Shown here: positions 261 to 40,984 of the stretch, piece after piece
Layout of the letters: every line of letters begins with the position of its first letter
Numbering within the stretch: position 1 is the stretch's first letter
Origin: Methylacidimicrobium tartarophylax
GTDB taxonomy: Bacteria; Verrucomicrobiota; Verrucomicrobiia; Methylacidiphilales; Methylacidiphilaceae
Reading direction: 5' to 3'
Length of the DNA: 40,984 nucleotides
Assembly (NCBI RefSeq): GCF_902143375.2
Contig: NZ_CABFVA020000034.1
Location: 1-40,984, forward strand
The notes under the pieces: model-generated
What the model saw: the letters and a program-made list of their open reading frames with translations, nothing else
What the model was told of the DNA's origin: nothing
The model's database searches: none
Program-made: the position numbers and the translations under genes

Positions 261-1130
261 GTGCACAGTTCCAAGCCGCCAAAGAAGGGATATCGCAATT
301 TTCTCTTAGATGTCTTGTTGCCTTCGCTCTTCGTCCGGCGAGGCGGCGTTCGTCTCTCTCCTACCTTCCCTGCTCTCTCTGAAGGTCAAGTCTGCCTGAC
401 ATGGGTTGGGCATGCGTCTTTCCTCATTCAAACGCCGCGGCACAATATCCTGATCGATCCGAACTGGGCCAATTGGATGCTCGTGATCCGCAGGCTCAAA
501 CGAGCAGGCATCGCCATCCGTGACCTGCCGAATATCGATTTGGTGCTCATCACCCACGCTCATTTCGATCATCTCAATCGGAAGTCCCTTCGAGAAATTG
601 CTGCCCGGCAGCCCGTACTCGTCCCGTCCGGAGTCGGCAACCTGGTGCATGACCTGGGTTTCGAGCAGGTGCGGGAGATGGCCTGGTGGGATCGTTGGGA
701 GTTGCAAGGGCTTTCGATGACGTTTACACCCGCGCATCATTGGGGCGCGCGGTATCTCGCGGACAGACATCGCGGCTACGGCGGCTATTCCCTCACCTAT
801 GGCGGGCGCACCGTCTACCATTGCGGGGACACCGCCTACTTCAAGGAGTTCCCGGAGATCGGGAGGCGGCTCCGGCCGGAGATCGTCCTCATGCCGATCG
901 GCTGCTACGATCAGCCTTCGAAACGAGTGTCCCATATCACCCCGGAGAAAGCCGTCCAAGCCTTTCTCGAACTACAGGGCAAGATTCTCATCCCCATGCA
1001 CTTTGGAACATACCGGATGAGCTACGAGCCCCTTCATGAGCCTGCCCACCGGCTATTGGTTGCCGCGAGCCGCGCGGGCGTCCTTTCGCAGGTCCATTTT
1101 TTACACGAAGGGGTTCCGCAGGTCTTTTGA
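261..1130 (+). CDS. MBL-fold metallohydrolase, NAPE-PLD/UlaG-like
   Basis: Predicted metallo-beta-lactamase-fold hydrolase of 289 residues in the COG2220 group, which includes N-acyl-phosphatidylethanolamine phospholipase D and UlaG. Visible metal-site motifs are WVGHASFLI near residue 48, HAHFDH at 99-104, a TPAHHWGAR segment, CGDTAYF, and IPMHFGTYRMSYEP near the C terminus, all in the expected order. The start is a GTG with no clear Shine-Dalgarno sequence. I see no signal peptide, so it is probably cytosolic. It lies 21 bases after infA. The substrate cannot be read from sequence; phospholipid or lactone hydrolysis are both possible. A second member of the same family lies at 38045-39040. 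Confidence 0.85.
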   Translation: MHSSKPPKKGYRNFLLDVLLPSLFVRRGGVRLSPTFPALSEGQVCLTWVGHASFLIQTPRHNILIDPNWANWMLVIRRLKRAGIAIRDLPNIDLVLITHAHFDHLNRKSLREIAARQPVLVPSGVGNLVHDLGFEQVREMAWWDRWELQGLSMTFTPAHHWGARYLADRHRGYGGYSLTYGGRTVYHCGDTAYFKEFPEIGRRLRPEIVLMPIGCYDQPSKRVSHITPEKAVQAFLELQGKILIPMHFGTYRMSYEPLHEPAHRLLVAASRAGVLSQVHFLHEGVPQVF

Positions 1131-11794: not shown

Positions 11795-13261
11795 CTACTC
11801 CCGGGGTATTTGCGGCATGGCGAGCTTCCGCAAATCCGCCAAGCGCAAGCCGAGCGCCTCGGCAGCCTGCCGCTCATCGCCCCCCTGCTTCCTCTTGATC
11901 CTCTGGACGAGACGACCCACGAGCTTTTGGATTAAATCGGTCGCGCCGTTTTGCAACACGAGGTCGCCTAAAATCTGCACCGTCTCCTCGAGCGCACGTT
12001 CTTCCGCCGAGCGCCGCCCCTCGGAATGGGTGGAAAGTTCCTCCTGCATTTCCTCCGGGAGGTTGCTTATCTCAATGGTGCTGCTGGCCGCCAAGACCAT
12101 GGCGCGCTGAATGACGTTTTCGAGCTCCCGGATATTGCCTGGCCAAGAATAGGCCTGCAGCAGCTGCATTGCATCCGGTGCAATTCGTACCGCAGCCTGG
12201 GGAAGATAGCGCCGATGCTTCTGGAGGAAGTGCGCCGTAAGATCAGGAATATCCTCGGCCCGGTCCCTCAGCGGAGGCAAGGAAACCCGAACGACGTTCA
12301 GGCGATAAAAAAGGTCGGCGCGAAACTCCCGGCGTTGCACCGCTGCAGCCAGATCCTTGTTGGTCGCCGCGATGACGCGGACATCCGTTCGGATCGACTC
12401 GTTGCTCCCCAACCGAGAAACCTCGCCTTCCTGAAGGACCCGCAAGATCTTGCTCTGGGTCGCCAGGGGCATTTCCCCGATCTCGTCCAGGAAAATCGTC
12501 CCGCCGTCGCCCTGTTCAAACTTTCCAATGCGTTGAGCCATGGCCCCGGTAAACGAACCCCGCTCATGTCCAAACAACTCGCTTTCCAGGAGATTCTCCG
12601 GAATCGCAGCGCAATTGATCGCAATGAAAGGCTTATTGGCTCGCATGCTGTGCTGGTAGATCGCGCGGGCGATCAACTCCTTCCCGGTTCCGCTCTCCCC
12701 GGTGATCAGCACGGTCGCATTGGTCTTTGCCACCTGGCCGACCAGCTTGTAGACCTTCTGCATCCGGACGCAGTCTCCGACGAGCGCCAACCCCTGCCGA
12801 TCGGCCGTACCCGCCGTTGTCTGACCCTCTTCCTGAGCAAGACGAGCGGCCTCCAACAATCGCTCGATCAGGTGCCGGAGATCGGGAATGTCGAACGGCT
12901 TCAGGATATAGTCGTAGGCACCCAACTTCATCGCTTCGATGGCGGTATGGGATGTGCCGTAGGCGGTCATCATCAGGACGATGAGCTTCGGCGCAATGCG
13001 CTTCATCTCCCGGAGCGTCTCCAAGCCATTCTTGCCGCCCATCCGGATATCCATGATGACGACTTCGGCGGGCTGCTTCCGGAGCAGTTCGATGGCCGCC
13101 TCACCCGATTGAGCAGCCCGCACATCGATCGGCAGATCTTCCAGCAACCTCTGGAATGAGTAGTGGACGTCCTGCTCATCGTCTACGACGAGAATGGAAC
13201 GCCGGAGGACGGGCTTTTGCTCCTTCGTCGCTGATGGATCCGTCTGTTTAGCTATGGTCAC
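11795..13261 (-). CDS. Sigma-54-dependent response regulator, NtrC family
   Basis: A 488-residue two-component activator. The receiver domain (about 22-135) has D27/D28, phospho-acceptor D71, T99 and K121. The AAA+ domain (about 155-390) has Walker A GESGTGKE at 188-195, the sigma-54 contact loop as GSFTGA at 235-240 in place of GAFTGA, Walker B TIFLDE, and FRADLFYRL with the arginine finger. The C terminus ends in AAEALGLRLADLRKL, a Fis-like helix-turn-helix. The start is a GTG right after an in-frame stop. No histidine kinase gene is nearby, so it is an orphan regulator. I saw no -24/-12 promoter in the window to name a target. Confidence 0.95.
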   Translation of the reverse strand: MTIAKQTDPSATKEQKPVLRRSILVVDDEQDVHYSFQRLLEDLPIDVRAAQSGEAAIELLRKQPAEVVIMDIRMGGKNGLETLREMKRIAPKLIVLMMTAYGTSHTAIEAMKLGAYDYILKPFDIPDLRHLIERLLEAARLAQEEGQTTAGTADRQGLALVGDCVRMQKVYKLVGQVAKTNATVLITGESGTGKELIARAIYQHSMRANKPFIAINCAAIPENLLESELFGHERGSFTGAMAQRIGKFEQGDGGTIFLDEIGEMPLATQSKILRVLQEGEVSRLGSNESIRTDVRVIAATNKDLAAAVQRREFRADLFYRLNVVRVSLPPLRDRAEDIPDLTAHFLQKHRRYLPQAAVRIAPDAMQLLQAYSWPGNIRELENVIQRAMVLAASSTIEISNLPEEMQEELSTHSEGRRSAEERALEETVQILGDLVLQNGATDLIQKLVGRLVQRIKRKQGGDERQAAEALGLRLADLRKLAMPQIPRE

Positions 13262-13357
13262 GCACTAGAAAAATGGAGCCCTTTGCCGTCGGAGCCAAGA
13301 GCAAAATCCGCTTTTGCCCGCTCCATCTCGGTTGCTCTTCGAGAATCACCTGCGCAT

Positions 13358-13386
13358 TTGCCAAAGATCGAAGCCCTCTGTATTGT
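13358..13386 (+). promoter_or_regulatory. Possible promoter with leaderless spacing, thioredoxin gene
   Basis: TTGCCA at 13358-13363 and TATTGT at 13381-13386 are separated by an optimal 17 bp. The -10 ends 7 bases before ATG 13394, so the mRNA would start at about the start codon. No Shine-Dalgarno sequence precedes the ATG. The same geometry occurs at htpX. Confidence 0.4.
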
Positions 13387-13393
13387 CAGCCTC

Positions 13394-13888
13394 ATGGACT
13401 TCGCATGCGCCGCCCGGCGGCTTCAAAGTGGACGGTTGGCCCTTGTCCTCGGTTGGATGGTTCCCCTGCTTTTTTCCGCAGCGGCCTTCGCTGGATCTGC
13501 CAATTGGACGACGGATTATCCCAAGGCTCTCAAGGAAGCCAAAGCCCAAAAGAAGCTGGTGCTGGCAAACTTTACCGGTTCCGACTGGTGCCCGTGGTGC
13601 CAAAAGCTCCAGCGCGAAGTGTTTTCGACCCCGGAGTTTCAGCAGTACGCCAAGGAACATCTCGTGCTGCTTGAGCTCGATTTCCCTCAACGCAAACCGC
13701 AAACGGAGGCTTTGAAGCAACAGAACAAAGAGCTCGCGGACCGATACCACGTCGACGCCTTCCCGACCATCCTGCTGCTGGATCCCGAAGGGCAAGAGGT
13801 CGCCTCCATGGGTTACATGCCAGGCGGAGCCAAGCCGTTCTTGGACAAAGTCGAGCAGCTTCGTCAGAAAGCAACTTCCGGAGGTTGA
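13394..13888 (+). CDS. Exported thioredoxin-family protein
   Basis: A 164-residue protein with a signal peptide (basic start, hydrophobic about residues 15-31, cleavage near AFAGS) and a thioredoxin fold. The redox pair is C66-PW-C69 within FTGSDWCPWC, followed by KLQREVF and FQQYAKEHLVLLELDFP. DAFPTILLLDPEGQEV holds the cis-proline. This variety is common in Verrucomicrobia and Planctomycetes, and it probably works as a periplasmic disulfide reductase or isomerase. The frame extends 37 codons upstream, but the chosen ATG gives the signal peptide. It is divergent from the NtrC-type gene. Its partner proteins are unknown. Confidence 0.85.
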   Translation: MDFACAARRLQSGRLALVLGWMVPLLFSAAAFAGSANWTTDYPKALKEAKAQKKLVLANFTGSDWCPWCQKLQREVFSTPEFQQYAKEHLVLLELDFPQRKPQTEALKQQNKELADRYHVDAFPTILLLDPEGQEVASMGYMPGGAKPFLDKVEQLRQKATSGG

Positions 13889-14058
13889 CCTGCGTATCTC
13901 ACCAAGTGCATAGCCGAGGCACGGCCAATGGGTTCCCGCGCTCTCGGAGACGAAGCGCGCCTGAATCGCGACCTTACCCGGAGCCGAAAGAAAATCTTTC
14001 CTGAAGTCGCTCCCAAGTCTAGCATTCGCACACAACTGCTTCCTTACATCCAACGAAT

Positions 14059-14442
14059 ATGAAACGAACATGGTCCACAGGCGCGAAGGCACTCTCGGTG
14101 AGTGCACTGGCTCTCTTTCTCTCCTCCCCATTGCATGCCCAGGATTCTTCGTCCTCCTCCCAGGAAGCCGAGTCCCAGGCCGCCACGCCGGAGAACCATC
14201 ATCATCACCACCCAATGCACCGGCAGGTGCGGGAAAATCATGAGAAGATGCGGCGTCTCATGGAGCGCCAAGACGCCGAGTTGCGGCGTCTGACGGAAGA
14301 AATGAACCAGGCTCCTTCCGACAAGAAGCTCGATCGGGCCTGCGCCGTGATCAACAAGCTCGTCGAACAGCGGAAGGAAATGCACGACGCAATGGAAGGC
14401 ATGCATCAAAAGTGGATGCATCAGATGGGTGAAGGGAAATAG
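14059..14442 (+). CDS. Small secreted His/Met-rich helical protein (paralog 1)
   Basis: A 127-residue protein with a signal peptide (residues 1-27, ending LHAQ) and a Ser/Glu linker with HHHHH at 47-51. The rest is predicted helical and rich in Met, Glu and His, including MHDAMEGMHQKWMHQM at the end. The core at 69-109 aligns without gaps to residues 73-113 of the protein at 14633, with 18 of 41 positions identical by eye (shared DKK(L/I)D and EQRK). I do not recognise the family. His and Met clusters suggest periplasmic metal binding, perhaps copper given the oxidase gene nearby, but that is inference. A Spy/CpxP-like chaperone is another possibility. Confidence 0.75.
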   Translation: MKRTWSTGAKALSVSALALFLSSPLHAQDSSSSSQEAESQAATPENHHHHHPMHRQVRENHEKMRRLMERQDAELRRLTEEMNQAPSDKKLDRACAVINKLVEQRKEMHDAMEGMHQKWMHQMGEGK

Positions 14443-15658: not shown

Positions 15659-17500
15659 CTAGACATGCACCTTCTCGGCGGGTGCCTTTTCCTCCGCGGT
15701 CGGCTCCCACTGAGGGAGGAAATCCCGCTCAGCCCCTGGGACGCTATACTCGTAGGGACCGCGATAGACCGTGGGAGCCACGGGAAAGTTCCCATGTCCA
15801 AGCGGGGGAGTGGGAGTCGCCCACTCCAGAGTGGTTGCTTGCCACGGATTGTCGGATTTCACCTTCTCTCCGTATTTCGCACTCCAGAAAAAGTTGATGA
15901 TAAACGGAATTTGTGCGAGTGCCAGCAGCCAGGCCGAGATCGACATCACATGGTTGAGCCAAAGGACGTGCTGCGCGTACTGCCAGCCGGCTCCCCCGTC
16001 GTACCAACGCCGGTGCATCCCGTTCATCCCCTGGATCAGCATCGGGAAGAAGATGCCGTTGAAAAAGAGGAGCGTCGGCCAGAAATGGAGCTTCCCAAGG
16101 AAGTCGTTCATCATGCGGCCCGTCACCTTCGGATACCAGTAGTAGATCCCGGCGAAGAGAGCCATGAGCGAGGTCGGCGCCATCATGTAGTGGAAGTGGC
16201 CCACGACATAGTAGGTGTCGTGAAGGACGAGGTCCGAGGAACTCCAGCCGTTCGGAAGCCCGGTCAAGCCGCCGATGGCGAAGAGAGGAAGCCAAGACAA
16301 GGCGAAGAGCATCGGCAGGTTGACGCGGATCGACGCTCCCCAAAGGGAAAGAAGAAACACCGTTCCAATGAGCACCGAGGGAATCGAGATCAGCGTGGTG
16401 AAGATCTGGAAAAAGGTCGTCACGCCTTGGCCCATGCCCGTCATGTACATGTGATGCGCCCAGACGACCATCCCGATCAATCCGATGGCGATCTCGGAGT
16501 AGACGATCGCCCGGTAGCTCCAGAGTGGCCTGCGGGTATTGTTCGTCCAAATCTCCGCAATGATGCCCATGGTGGGGAGGATCTGGACGTAGACCTCGGG
16601 ATGCCCGAGAAACCAGAAGAGATGTTGCCAAAGGAGCGGAGCGCCGCCTCCGCTGACCGCCACCCGCTGTCCTCCAACGATCAGGCCGTCGGGGGAAAAG
16701 AAGCTCGTTCCGGCGAGCCGATCCATGAGCTGCATGACGGCGGCAGACTCGAGCGGCGGAAAGGCCAGGAGCATGAGGAAAGCGGTAACAAGTTCAGACC
16801 AGACGAAGATCGGGAGCCGCATCCAGCCCAGCCCCGGCGCCCGGAGCTGGAAGATGGTCGTGATCATGTTGATGGTCCCCAGCAGCGAACCGGTGATGTT
16901 GAAGGCCATCCCGAGCAGCCAGAGGGTCTGACCGTTGAGAACCGGGTGAAATCCCGGACCGGAGTCGGCAAGATCCGCCAGCGGAGGATAGGAGGTCCAT
17001 CCCGACTTTGCCGCACCTCCCGGCACAAAAAAGCTCGCGACCATAATGACGACACCCACGAAGAAGCACCAGAAGCTCGCCATGTTGAGCCGAGGGAAGG
17101 CCATGTCGGGAGCGCCCAGCTTGAGAGGAACGATGTAGTTGCCGAACCCCGCAAAAAGCGCGGGCACGAGCGCCATGAAGATCATGATGGTCCCATGGAT
17201 CGCCCCGAATGAGTTATACAACTGCGGCGTCATGACTCCGCCCGGAGCCATGTTCGATCCGAAGACCTGCTGCATCAGGTGCGCAAAAATGGGCACGGGC
17301 TTTCCAGGATAGGAGAGCTGCCAGCGCATGAAAATCATGAGGACGAACCCGAAGAGACCCATCAGCAGCGAGGTCACCATGTACTGGATACCGATCACCT
17401 TGTGATCAACGGAGAAGACCCACCGTTTCCACCAGGGCAAAGGCTCCCCGTGCCCATGTTGCCCCGGTTCCACAGGATTTTCGGTCATATGGCTGTCCAT
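15659..17500 (-). CDS. ctaD: Cytochrome c oxidase subunit I, A-type heme-copper oxidase
   Basis: The 613-residue catalytic subunit has about 12 membrane spans. Seen residues are H102 (heme a), CuB ligands H300 in HPEVY with Y304 for the cross-link and H349/H350, H435 (heme a3) and H437 (heme a) in HDTYYVVGHFHY. D-channel residues N121, D132 and N139 plus E302 are present. The K-channel lysine of the usual PTGIKVF segment is replaced by Ile (I378 in PSVLIGTVF). AGAGGG and GGAGG precede ATG 17500. Subunits II and III are not adjacent; only the small membrane protein follows. Terminal quinol or cytochrome c oxidase of the inner membrane. Confidence 0.95.
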   Translation of the reverse strand: MDSHMTENPVEPGQHGHGEPLPWWKRWVFSVDHKVIGIQYMVTSLLMGLFGFVLMIFMRWQLSYPGKPVPIFAHLMQQVFGSNMAPGGVMTPQLYNSFGAIHGTIMIFMALVPALFAGFGNYIVPLKLGAPDMAFPRLNMASFWCFFVGVVIMVASFFVPGGAAKSGWTSYPPLADLADSGPGFHPVLNGQTLWLLGMAFNITGSLLGTINMITTIFQLRAPGLGWMRLPIFVWSELVTAFLMLLAFPPLESAAVMQLMDRLAGTSFFSPDGLIVGGQRVAVSGGGAPLLWQHLFWFLGHPEVYVQILPTMGIIAEIWTNNTRRPLWSYRAIVYSEIAIGLIGMVVWAHHMYMTGMGQGVTTFFQIFTTLISIPSVLIGTVFLLSLWGASIRVNLPMLFALSWLPLFAIGGLTGLPNGWSSSDLVLHDTYYVVGHFHYMMAPTSLMALFAGIYYWYPKVTGRMMNDFLGKLHFWPTLLFFNGIFFPMLIQGMNGMHRRWYDGGAGWQYAQHVLWLNHVMSISAWLLALAQIPFIINFFWSAKYGEKVKSDNPWQATTLEWATPTPPLGHGNFPVAPTVYRGPYEYSVPGAERDFLPQWEPTAEEKAPAEKVHV

Positions 17501-36448: not shown

Positions 36449-36488
36449 AACGCTTTTCGATGGACTGGAGCAGGATTTGGCGGAAGTC
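36449..36488 (+). repeat. 40-bp direct repeat, left boundary of toxin-antitoxin cassette
   Basis: It shares 36 of 40 bases (by eye) with 37153-37192, starting AACGCTTTTCGATGGACTG and ending GGAAGTC. Its last two bases are the first bases of the toxin stop codon (36487-36489). Confidence 0.75.
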
Positions 36489-36813
36489 ACTCAAAGATCG
36501 TGACGGTCTTCGCCAGAACCTCATCCAGGATGGCCGAGGGCAAGCTTTCCACCTTGCGCCCGTTGCGGGCCGTCAGATCAAGGACACGGGGCTGATCGCA
36601 GCGCACGACCCCGGTTGTCTTTGTTCCGGTCAGCGGCACAGCAAAGCCGATGCGACGGGCGAATTCGCCGCCCTTCGTGATGGGTAGAATGACCGGCAGT
36701 CGGGTTGCTCGGTTGAAATCGTCGGGCGAGACGATGAGCACCGGGCGATGCCCACGCTGTTCCCGGCCTTGCGTCGGTTCCAGATCCACCATGTACACGT
36801 CGCCGCGCCTCAT
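36487..36813 (-). CDS. MazF/PemK-family toxin (mRNA endoribonuclease)
   Basis: A 108-residue protein of the CcdB/MazF fold, probably a ribosome-independent mRNA interferase. MRRGDVYMVDLEP, GREQRGHRPVLIVSPDDFN, LPVILPITKGG and TGVVRCDQPRVLDLTARNG are signature segments; Arg and Thr of the catalytic region are visible. Its ATG (36811-36813) overlaps the antitoxin TGA by 4 bases (ATGA), so the toxin is translationally coupled to the antitoxin. It is closer to ChpB/PemK than to MazF itself by its DQPRVLD segment. Confidence 0.9.
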   Translation of the reverse strand: MRRGDVYMVDLEPTQGREQRGHRPVLIVSPDDFNRATRLPVILPITKGGEFARRIGFAVPLTGTKTTGVVRCDQPRVLDLTARNGRKVESLPSAILDEVLAKTVTIFE

Positions 36814-37067
36814 ATCAGCTCGTCGCCCACGGCCGGGGCATCCACCCATTCGCGTTCCTCCGCCGGCTGCGGTTGCGAATAGTCGGATGCGGCCAACAAC
36901 TCGGCCATCGTGTAATGAGGCCGTGCCGCCGGCTCGATCACGAGGCGACCGTGATCGACGGACAAGCCGACCTTGGCACCGGCTTGCAGGTGCAGAATGT
37001 CGAGCAGCGCGCGGGGGACGGCCAGCATGACCGACCCGCCGACCTTACGCAGATTCGTGGTGTGCAT
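36810..37067 (-). CDS. MazE/PemI-type AbrB-fold antitoxin
   Basis: An 85-residue protein with an AbrB/SpoVT DNA-binding domain: NLRKVGGSVMLAVPRALLDILHLQAGAKVGLSV. The C-terminal half (about 55-85) is acidic and unstructured-looking, ending APAVGDELI, as expected for the toxin-binding tail. GGGAGA lies about five bases before ATG 37067. It should bind and block the toxin and also repress its own promoter. Confidence 0.9.
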   Translation of the reverse strand: MHTTNLRKVGGSVMLAVPRALLDILHLQAGAKVGLSVDHGRLVIEPAARPHYTMAELLAASDYSQPQPAEEREWVDAPAVGDELI

Positions 37068-38009: not shown

Positions 38010-38045
38010 ACAAGCCGCAGGAGCACGTTTGAGAGAAAGGCAGCC
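38010..38045 (-). repeat. End fragment of the MITE-like repeat (fragment E)
   Basis: ACAAGCCGCAGGAGCACGTT followed by GAGAGAAAGGCAGCC resembles the right end of copy A (CAAGCCGCAGGAGAAAGC, GAGAAATGGCGGC). It lies between two convergent genes and overlaps the last base of the MBL gene. Short and imperfect, so uncertain. Confidence 0.4.
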
Positions 38046-39040
38046 TAGAGGCGAATGGTCTCCCCGAACTTGGGCGCCCGGAAGGAGTCTTCCGACAGGC
38101 CGAAAAGCTGCCGGGCGTCGGCAAGGAGCCGGAGCGGCTCCTCCCATGGTTCGTCGGAGAGGCGGAAGGTTCCCCAATGCATGGCCAGTGACATCCCGGA
38201 CTTGAGATCCCGATGCAATTGGGCCGCCTCCATGGGATTGAGGTGAAGTGGTTGCTGCAACCACGAGGGCTCATAGGCCCCGATGGGAAGCAGGGCAAGC
38301 TCGACGGGTCCCAGAAGCTTGCCCAAGTCCGCATGAAAGCGAGCATAACCGGTATCGCCCGCGAAAAAGATCCGGCGGCCGCCCGAGGAAAACAGCCAAC
38401 TGCACCAGAGAACGCGGTCGCGATCCAGTGGACTTCTCGCCGAAGCGTGCTGCGCGGGGAGACAGAGGAGCTTCCACGAACCGTCGGCGATGAACTCTCC
38501 CCATCCGAATTCTACGACCCGGCGGAACCCCCATCGCGCGAGGAGCGGCCGAAGACCCATCGGACAGCAGACAAGAGTCGCACGAGGAAGCTGCTGGAGG
38601 CTGGCGCGATCGCAATGATCGAAGTGGGAGTGGCTGAGGATCACTAGGTCGGGAGCGGGGCTTTCCTCGAGACGGAAAGGGGAGGGGCGCCGGCGGCGGA
38701 AACCCGGAATGGGCCAGGGTGCGCAGTACTCTCCGAAGAGAGGATCGGTGAAGACGGTGAGTCCACCAAGTTGAAGAAGAAAAGTCGAATGACCAAGCCA
38801 AGTGGCCACGATGCGCTCCGGTGGCGGATTGCGTAGCGCCGGCCAGTCGACGAGAACTTCTTCCGGGAGGCAGGCTGCGCCGTGGCCTCCGTCTCGGCCC
38901 CTCGGAGACCGGCTGGCAAGCTTCCAACGAAAGACATCATTCCAGCGGGGAACCCATGGCGAGTCGATGTTTTGGAAACGGCCCTCCTTCCTGCTGGCGT
39001 TCCAAGGAAATCCGGGCAGGCGTTCCGGTCTATACCCCAT
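38045..39040 (-). CDS. MBL-fold metallohydrolase, NAPE-PLD-like
   Basis: A 331-residue COG2220 protein. WLGHSTFLLQLGGLTVFTDPLF, HSHFDH (137-142), PAQHASARSPLDRD, FAGDTGY and AMHWGTFRLSDEP carry the expected zinc ligands. The N-terminal ~50 residues (GYRPERLPGFPWNASRKEGRF) are typical of the phospholipase D-like group. ATG 39040 overlaps the stop of the upstream membrane-protein gene by 11 bases, so it lies in the same operon; GGAAGG is two bases before the ATG. Family substrates include N-acyl phosphatidylethanolamines; here it is unknown. Confidence 0.87.
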   Translation of the reverse strand: MGYRPERLPGFPWNASRKEGRFQNIDSPWVPRWNDVFRWKLASRSPRGRDGGHGAACLPEEVLVDWPALRNPPPERIVATWLGHSTFLLQLGGLTVFTDPLFGEYCAPWPIPGFRRRRPSPFRLEESPAPDLVILSHSHFDHCDRASLQQLPRATLVCCPMGLRPLLARWGFRRVVEFGWGEFIADGSWKLLCLPAQHASARSPLDRDRVLWCSWLFSSGGRRIFFAGDTGYARFHADLGKLLGPVELALLPIGAYEPSWLQQPLHLNPMEAAQLHRDLKSGMSLAMHWGTFRLSDEPWEEPLRLLADARQLFGLSEDSFRAPKFGETIRL

Positions 39041-40421
39041 GGCCTTCCGAAGGCTCCCGCTCTCCTCGAAGCAAGGCAAACAGCCATGAGAGGGAAACGG
39101 CGGTCATGCAAACGCCGCCCGCCGCCCGCAGAAAATAGAGCCAGCGTACCTCGGTCGCATGGTGCCACAGCCATCCGGGTGCCCGCACCTCGTTCCATCC
39201 CGTGGCGCTGAGAGCCAGGAGATGGAGGAGGAGCCCCGCATGCCACAAAGAGAAGCGTATCGGCTCCCCCAGGAGGCCCGGGTTTCCGGGAACTCCTCGG
39301 GCTAATTGCAAGAGCAGCAGCATGTTCAGACTGGTCAGCATGCCGGCCATCGCAATATGCGCATGGGCGACAAGCAGATGGGAATACTTCGCGGTATCAA
39401 GAATTCCCGGCAGGAAAAAGGTGAAGCCCGTGATCACCAGGGCCGCCCACCACCCGGCGAACGAAATACCCCAGAGGCGCGAGCCGTCCGCCCAAGCGAA
39501 GGAGTGCAGATAGAGAGGCAGCAGGGGAATCCAGATCAGGAGGCCTGCCAATCCGCCGATCTGCTTCCAGTCCCGGTTCGACTGGTCACCATGATTGAGC
39601 AGCAGGTAGAGGATGCTCTCTACCACGAAGATCCCCCAGAATGGACGTACCATCCGCCGATTCCGGCGTGGGATCTCCAGAAAGGCGGGAAGGAGCCCGA
39701 GGATGAGGATAACCGCTAGGGTAGAACCAAGAAGATTGGTACCCGTCGGCCCCCCGCTTTCCGGATTGATGGGTGGATAAAGCTGGGGTTTGCTTGCATT
39801 CCAGATCGCCAGGGGGACGGTGCCGAGCCCAGCAAGCAGAAGCCAGTCGAACATCGAGGGCGCCCGGATCGAGCCCTCGCTCTGCTCACCGCTCTTTTTG
39901 CCCCGGAACCCGCGGAGCAGAGAGTAGGCCAGTAGACCCCAGAGCCCGACAAGAACCGCAACGAAGCAGATCCGGGACAGACCGGACCAATCCAGGAAGA
40001 GCTTGCCGCTGCTCTCCCCTTCGAGCCACCAGGCGCCGCCCAGCCCGAGAGCCCATGACCAGAGGACAAAAGACCAGCGCGCCTGGAGCAGCGCATCGGA
40101 TCGGCGAGGAAGCCATCGGCTCAAGAGAACGCCGACAACCGGGAGAGAGCACCAGCCATAGAGTTGCCAGTTGAGATGGAGCGCCATCCACCTCCCATAG
40201 CCCGCAGGACCGGACACGGCTCCCACCTCCGGCCAGCAGAGGAGAAGCGCGAGCCAGAGTCCGACGAGATTGGCGGCGCTCAGCCAGAAGAGGCTGAAGC
40301 CGGCGGTAAGCCGATAAAGTCCGGTCTGAAACCCGACCGGGTTTTGCTGCTCGCCGAGGAGGACATTCATCGCACTGGCCCGGGAGGGCGATCCGTCCTC
40401 CAGGACGGGACGGACCGCCAT
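39030..40421 (-). CDS. Heme-copper oxidase-like polytopic membrane protein
   Basis: A 463-residue protein with about 12 predicted hydrophobic helices. MALHLNWQLYGWCSLPVVGVLL resembles the heme-binding helix of CcoN/NorB-like proteins, and LLVAHAHIAMAGMLTSLNMLLL provides further histidines. The HPEVY and adjacent His-His CuB motifs are not seen, so oxygen or NO reduction is unlikely; heme binding is possible. The start at 40421 has GGGAGGA next to it; ATG 40370 is an alternative. It sits 27 bases after the YceI-like gene and overlaps the MBL gene, so the three are likely one operon. Confidence 0.65.
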   Translation of the reverse strand: MAVRPVLEDGSPSRASAMNVLLGEQQNPVGFQTGLYRLTAGFSLFWLSAANLVGLWLALLLCWPEVGAVSGPAGYGRWMALHLNWQLYGWCSLPVVGVLLSRWLPRRSDALLQARWSFVLWSWALGLGGAWWLEGESSGKLFLDWSGLSRICFVAVLVGLWGLLAYSLLRGFRGKKSGEQSEGSIRAPSMFDWLLLAGLGTVPLAIWNASKPQLYPPINPESGGPTGTNLLGSTLAVILILGLLPAFLEIPRRNRRMVRPFWGIFVVESILYLLLNHGDQSNRDWKQIGGLAGLLIWIPLLPLYLHSFAWADGSRLWGISFAGWWAALVITGFTFFLPGILDTAKYSHLLVAHAHIAMAGMLTSLNMLLLLQLARGVPGNPGLLGEPIRFSLWHAGLLLHLLALSATGWNEVRAPGWLWHHATEVRWLYFLRAAGGVCMTAVSLSWLFALLRGEREPSEGHGV

Positions 40422-40448
40422 TCCTCCCGAGAGTCGCAACAGGTCCGG

Positions 40449-40984
40449 TTACGGGAGAATGAAGGCAAACTGATATTCGATGGGCAACGTGGTGCCGACC
40501 GTCATGAACGATTTCTTAATCTGGGGCAGGTCGAATTGAAGCGTATCGAGCTTTGTCTTGCCCGAGACCATGATCCGTTTTCCTTCCTGCCACCAGAGTG
40601 CGTCACCGTTCAGCGGATGTCGCGCTCCATTCAGATCGAAAATACCGGAAACCGAGACGTGAGCCGGATCCTGGGCCGTGGCGGTCGAACAATTGCCGGA
40701 GAGCACGCGGATTCCCTCACATCGAAACGAGGCTTGCGGGTGAAGCTTGGCATGAAGCCAGTGGAACATCTCCTCGTCCCGCTTCTTGTGGAAGGTCGTA
40801 AGGCCCGCGATCGGGAAGACCAACACGGCCTTCTGGATCGACGGGGTTGTCGCGGCGTCCCAATCCGCGCTCCCCGTGATCCGGGTTTCCGCGCCGTGGA
40901 AGTCGTGAAGGAAGGAGTCCGCGACAAATTTCACGTAGCTTTTGCTGCTGTCGACCGGCAGCGAGACGGGCTGGGCCGAGGCCC
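40449..40984 (-). CDS. YceI-family periplasmic protein, 5' end outside the window
   Basis: About 178 residues are visible on the minus strand; the frame is open to the right edge, so the start is missing. The visible start reads ASAQPVSLPVDSSKSYVKF, which looks like the end of a signal peptide. VKFVADSFLHDFHG, SIQKAVLVFPIAGLTT, MFHWLHAKLHPQASF, VSVSGIFDLNGARHPL and PIEYQFAFIL match the YceI lipocalin-like family, which binds isoprenoids such as polyprenols or quinones. First visible gene of the probable three-gene set with the oxidase-like membrane protein. Confidence 0.88.
   Translation of the reverse strand, partial: ASAQPVSLPVDSSKSYVKFVADSFLHDFHGAETRITGSADWDAATTPSIQKAVLVFPIAGLTTFHKKRDEEMFHWLHAKLHPQASFRCEGIRVLSGNCSTATAQDPAHVSVSGIFDLNGARHPLNGDALWWQEGKRIMVSGKTKLDTLQFDLPQIKKSFMTVGTTLPIEYQFAFILP

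Follow-up and report, generated by a model that had tools for sequence, protein, structure and literature searches.

A conserved gene cluster linking a YceI protein to a predicted haem-copper-oxidase-fold protein without CuB ligands in Methylacidimicrobium and other bacteria

The YceI-CoxL-MBL block and the cluster it closes

The stretch of DNA analysed (the window) comprised 40,984 nucleotides of contig NZ_CABFVA020000034.1 from Methylacidimicrobium tartarophylax. Three genes lay on the minus strand next to the window end, which is also the contig end: the 3' part of a gene for a YceI-family periplasmic lipocalin-like protein (40449..40984; ORF 40449-40982), open at the contig end; a gene for a membrane protein predicted to have a haem-copper-oxidase fold without CuB ligands, here called CoxL (39030..40421); and a gene for a NAPE-PLD-like hydrolase of the metallo-beta-lactamase fold (MBL; 38045..39040). 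Alternative TTG starts were present at 40439 for CoxL and at 39079 for MBL. When the ATG starts of both genes were used, the YceI stop and the CoxL ATG were 27 bases apart (40422..40448, minus strand), with a GGGAGG box resembling a ribosome site ahead of the ATG, and the CoxL stop overlapped the MBL start by 11 bases (39030..39040, minus strand). All three ORFs were on the minus strand and the junction sequences agreed with the initial annotation, which had described three leftward genes spaced by 27 and -11 bases. No sigma-70 promoter-like site or terminator was found near the MBL end, an uninformative result. Two of six congeners had the block in this order, with CoxL 74-82% identical; the YceI orthologues in genomes G002 and G005 were 80-89% identical. 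The dN/dS ratios across YceI, CoxL and MBL were 0.12-0.32, indicating that the three ORFs are real constrained genes under purifying selection and not chance ORFs.

The identities proposed earlier for the two outer genes held up. YceI matched the Pfam YceI family with 49.1 bits against a cut-off of 23.7 (E 1.1e-12). MBL matched Pfam Lactamase_B_2 (E 6.1e-36) and carried the HxHxDH motif of NAPE-PLD/UlaG-like hydrolases as HSHFDH; its closest solved relative was NAPE-PLD (PDB 4qn9, E 1.9e-54 over 313 residues). A distant MBL paralogue, 34% identical, was located at 387-1085 (plus strand) of the window and occurred in 13 of 13 Methylacidiphilaceae genomes searched. To the left of the block, a MazF/PemK-like toxin gene was found at 36487-36849 (minus strand; Pfam E 5.6e-27), its start overlapped by a MazE-like ORF just upstream (36810 to ~37080).

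The remaining genes were on another contig (C40) of the same genome (G000), the end of which shared 12 bases with the window end. C40 supplied the start of YceI with a signal peptide (MSIRPNRSILRPLSLLLLTALAGTGWASA; the signal-peptide-like start was read by eye), and the reading frame continued from one contig into the other. It also carried genes for a polyprenyl diphosphate synthase, a LolE/MacB-like permease, a LolD-like ATPase, a DUF4345-like protein and an MFS-FixO-cytochrome c fusion. The contents of C40 together with the contig overlap showed that YceI-CoxL-MBL closes, on its 3' side, a larger cluster of eight genes on one strand. The gene set upstream of the MFS-FixO fusion was the same as in G005, and in both congeners YceI was preceded by a gene for a single fused protein, made up of an MFS-like domain, a FixO (CcoO) domain and another cytochrome c. 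The FixO domain of the G005 fusion was recognised with E 9.1e-27. Both CxxCH motifs of the fusion were conserved, as were methionines at the ligand positions, and its predicted model had a pLDDT of 81.

The MFS-FixO gene of the window's own genome was interrupted by a frameshift, located at a GGGC repeat (L046:1480-1530, G000:C40), which may be real or an assembly error. A fused NrfD-ActD gene (ActC-ActD of alternative complex III) adjoined the cluster on the other strand in two genomes of the genus (L046:6452-8500 in G000:C40; L006 ~12030-14172 in G005).

Fold and haem ligands of CoxL

CoxL of the window alone gave no match in Pfam, NCBIfam or PDB sequence searches, and COX1 was matched by 14 of 35 members of its family; the family was recognised only through these relatives and through its fold. 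The AlphaFold2 model of CoxL had a pLDDT of 88.5, and Foldseek placed it closest to CcoN (3mk7, E 6.7e-10) and then to cNOR (3o0r, 4xyd), with a VIA Z of ~27. On this model, CoxL is a protein of the haem-copper-oxidase subunit I fold, with those of CcoN and cNOR as the nearest folds. It formed its own clade against CcoN sequences (support 100/100).

H88 in TMII and H359, the first histidine of the TMX HxH motif, were present in every aligned member that covered them. H361 was kept except in three Acidobacteriota (L142, L143 and L146), in which the motif reads HSF and H361 is replaced by F. By analogy with known oxidases, we take H88 and H361 to be the ligands of the low-spin haem and H359 that of the high-spin haem; CoxL probably binds haem, and one b haem may be absent in the three Acidobacteriota. 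The copper site was different. The TMVI CuB histidine was gone in all inspected members, the GHN of CcoN being TGTN in the window CoxL, and the TMVII histidine pair was absent in the window CoxL; one of its two positions was widely kept in relatives and is N288 in Methylacidimicrobium. The ligands of the cNOR FeB site, three histidines at the same positions as those of CuB, were likewise absent. These results bore out the initial description of a 12-helix protein with oxidase-like histidines and no CuB ligands; the histidines are H88, H359 and H361. With the CuB site missing, CoxL has no oxygen-reduction site and should not be an oxygen reductase. R83, K146, K351 and R438 were conserved, indicating that CoxL is not simply a decaying oxidase.

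An ordinary cbb3 oxidase or NO reductase was considered as an identity for CoxL and was ruled out by the missing CuB and FeB ligands.

The genome carries pmoA, which marks the host by gene content as a verrucomicrobial methanotroph, and it encodes several oxidases. One of these, at 15659-17500 (minus strand) of the window, is a COX1 of the ordinary type in which the copper ligands are complete (HPEVY, HH, HFH). A CcoN-like protein of the host (L105; G000:C65:60330-61490), encoded beside a FixO-like gene, had no TMII His and no GHN, HH or HxH ligands, although a review of verrucomicrobial methanotrophs credits them with a cbb3 oxidase in addition to alternative complex III (PMC8498564).

Conservation across genomes and the transporter swap

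Loci were gathered from genomes of the phylum, from a named genome collection and from the phyla of two outlying matches, leaving 60 CoxL loci after removal of four known duplicates. They spanned Verrucomicrobiota, Acidobacteriota and one other MAG, and most kept the gene set. YceI and the FixO/cytochrome c protein were each found near CoxL in 53 of the 60 loci, the synthase and the MFS domain each in 50, the ABC permease in 48, the DUF protein in 45 and MBL in 13; these counts were lowered by contig ends and, as some loci are close relatives, do not represent independent events. The commonest order was YceI-synthase-permease-ATPase-CoxL-DUF-MFS/FixO, whereas the arrangement in Methylacidimicrobium differed, with CoxL between YceI and MBL. 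Conservation of the three-gene order in other genomes had been proposed as a check; the association of the genes was kept across phyla, but the exact order YceI-CoxL-MBL was confined to Methylacidimicrobium. Full-length members were found in 8 of 396 sampled genomes of Acidobacteriota (the phylum of L064), in the same order as the commonest one. Among the genomes sampled from the phylum of the 'Deltaproteobacteria' MAG, the only full-length member was in that MAG itself, and its locus is possibly a case of misbinning. Plasmid and viral collections contained no relative at the sensitivity used. The cluster is common to bacteria of at least two phyla and is apparently undescribed.

Within Methylacidiphilaceae, the YceI gene was found only in three genomes, those with CoxL, and the close MBL orthologue in the same three, plus a contig-edge fragment in a fourth. 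In Acidobacteriota, MBL stood directly after MFS/FixO in three loci and YceI took that place in three others; MBL adjoined YceI in L060 and L098. A further MBL-YceI pair (G269:C14:50184-52246) lay, by its coordinates, apart from CoxL, which suggests a link between MBL and YceI that is independent of it.

Six loci without the ABC pair carried an RND protein of the HpnN/BstA/MMPL kind, its gene located behind MFS/FixO or MBL. The ABC pair (48 loci) and the RND protein (6 loci) were mutually exclusive, and none of the 60 loci had both. All three RND proteins scanned against NCBIfam matched TIGR03480 (E 1e-92 to 1e-104), with scores of 310-349 bits, below the HpnN equivalog cut-off of 751.85, and are thus homologues only. 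This exclusivity and the recurrence of MBL and YceI in varied arrangements both speak for a lipid function.

Possible function and relation to known systems

Our preferred reading, a quite possible though tentative one, is that the cluster encodes an isoprenoid-lipid-linked electron-transfer module of the cell envelope. The polyprenyl diphosphate synthase would make a short-chain isoprenoid, and the LolDE/MacB-like ABC pair, or the HpnN/BstA-like RND protein in other lineages, would deliver an isoprenoid lipid into the periplasm-facing side of the envelope; there YceI would carry it and MBL may trim a lipid. CoxL, CcoN-like and CuB-less, would be loaded with b haem and would join the FixO/cytochrome c domains in a complex that moves electrons between the lipid, the presumed substrate (or the quinone pool), and periplasmic cytochromes. 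The parts fit a unit for electron transfer rather than an oxidase, with a presumed path from the cytochrome c domain through the FixO haem to the b haem(s) of CoxL. YceI proteins bind isoprenoids or ubiquinone and have a cytochrome b561 as partner, and in Burkholderia the cytochrome b561 LcoA and the YceI protein BcnA form a lipid-peroxyl detoxification system, for which quenching of lipid peroxyl radicals by YceI-bound ubiquinone has been proposed (PMC9113575). The module may work like LcoA and BcnA, except that a b/c cytochrome of the respiratory type would replace b561.

This module is favoured because the cluster was kept in 60 loci, because the ABC pair and the HpnN/BstA-like RND protein exclude each other, and because CoxL has the CcoN fold with H88 and H359 invariant and the CuB ligands lost. 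The conserved CxxCH motifs and methionine ligands of the fusion, the tracking of CoxL by YceI and the close MBL orthologue in Methylacidiphilaceae, and the known YceI ligands and b561 pairing (PMC9113575) argue for it as well. Against it count the replacement of H361 by F in three Acidobacteriota, the presence of MBL in only 13 of the 60 loci and the absence of quinone-biosynthesis genes from the cluster. It also counts against the module that LolD/MacB-like and RND proteins transport lipoproteins or drugs too. The initial annotation had covered only the end of the cluster when it suggested a lipid- or quinone-linked redox system; that suggestion fits, and it is strengthened by the polyprenyl synthase, the lipid-type transporters and the FixO/cytochrome c fusion encoded upstream, outside the window.

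The electron-transfer module was ranked above three other functions. CoxL could itself be an enzyme, in which a copper-free b3-type haem reduces peroxide, lipid hydroperoxide or NO with electrons from FixO/cytochrome c, while YceI, MBL and the transporters handle a lipid substrate or product. This would agree with the retention of the presumed high-spin ligand H359 also in the members that lack H361, the presumed low-spin ligand, with a fold near cNOR as well as CcoN, and with the polar or histidine residue at position 288, in the lost CuB region, of most relatives. However, there is no second metal site, residue 288 is N in Methylacidimicrobium, and we know of no activity for a haem site of this copper-free type, so that such an enzyme appears somewhat unlikely. 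The parts for lipid handling (synthase, ABC/RND lipid transporter, MFS domain, YceI and MBL) are more numerous than the cytochromes, and an HpnN/BstA-like protein replaces the ABC pair, as might be expected if the cluster served mainly isoprenoid or lipid export and remodelling, with cytochromes that only supply a redox step or energise the process and with CoxL as a structural subunit. We regard this as unlikely, since CoxL and FixO/cytochrome c were as constant as any part and kept their haem ligands, while the type of transporter varied.

An OmpR-type regulator and a HAMP sensor kinase stood beside the cluster in many loci, and CoxL with FixO might, as a haem complex, sense a gas or the redox state and pass the signal on to them. 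The kinase, however, carries a periplasmic sensor region of its own, the regulators lie outside the cluster in Methylacidimicrobium, and sensing needs no synthase, YceI or transporters, making a sensor very unlikely. Least probable is a divergent cbb3 subunit beside unrelated YceI and MBL genes: the exact three-gene order was limited to one genus and distant MBL paralogues are common, but the idea is contradicted by the conservation of the cluster across phyla, by the lack of CuB ligands in CoxL and by the tracking of CoxL by YceI and the close MBL orthologue within the family. Chance neighbourhood was ruled out by the cross-phylum conservation.

Put more broadly, and again tentatively, CoxL may stand for an undescribed haem-copper-oxidase branch that has lost its copper site and, with its MFS-FixO-cytochrome c partner, forms in several phyla an electron-transfer or peroxide-reducing complex acting on isoprenoid lipids from dedicated transporters and a YceI carrier. 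If this is true, a lipid pathway of the envelope has taken over the fold of oxygen reductases, stripped of its copper, and cytochrome b561 is no longer the only redox partner of the widespread YceI lipocalins, the second being of the respiratory type. Because ABC and HpnN-type transporters replace each other, lipid transport is an idea that lipidomics of culturable Opitutaceae or Acidobacteriota could test.

All components fall into known families or superfamilies, and the copper-free branch and the cluster are apparently new: no description of either was found in open-licence literature, an absence that is weak evidence, and the passages of the methanotroph review that list cbb3, aa3 and ba3 oxidases do not mention the CoxL cluster (PMC8498564). 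CoxL resembles the cbb3-type (C-type) oxidase CcoN/CcoO/CcoP in its CcoN fold, TMII His and TMX HxH, in a partner with FixO and cbb3-type cytochrome c domains, and in having a gene for a c-haem partner, CcoO (FixO), close by in 53 of 60 loci; it differs in the lack of CuB, in its own clade, in the fusion of FixO to MFS and in partners that are isoprenoid/lipid genes. It shares haem ligands with cNOR (NorB), the second-closest fold (3o0r, 4xyd), but has no FeB histidines and no NorC. The RND protein in the six loci without the ABC pair recalls the HpnN/BstA hopanoid and sterol transporters, although its score does not reach the family cut-off, genes for hopanoid synthesis were not seen, and Methylacidimicrobium uses the ABC pair. 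MBL matches NAPE-PLD (4qn9) but is bacterial and linked to YceI and CoxL. Like LcoA-BcnA (PMC9113575), the cluster links a YceI protein genetically to a membrane b-type cytochrome; unlike LcoA, CoxL has a CcoN fold, a c-haem partner and no Pfam b561 match, and a synthase, transporters and MBL are added.
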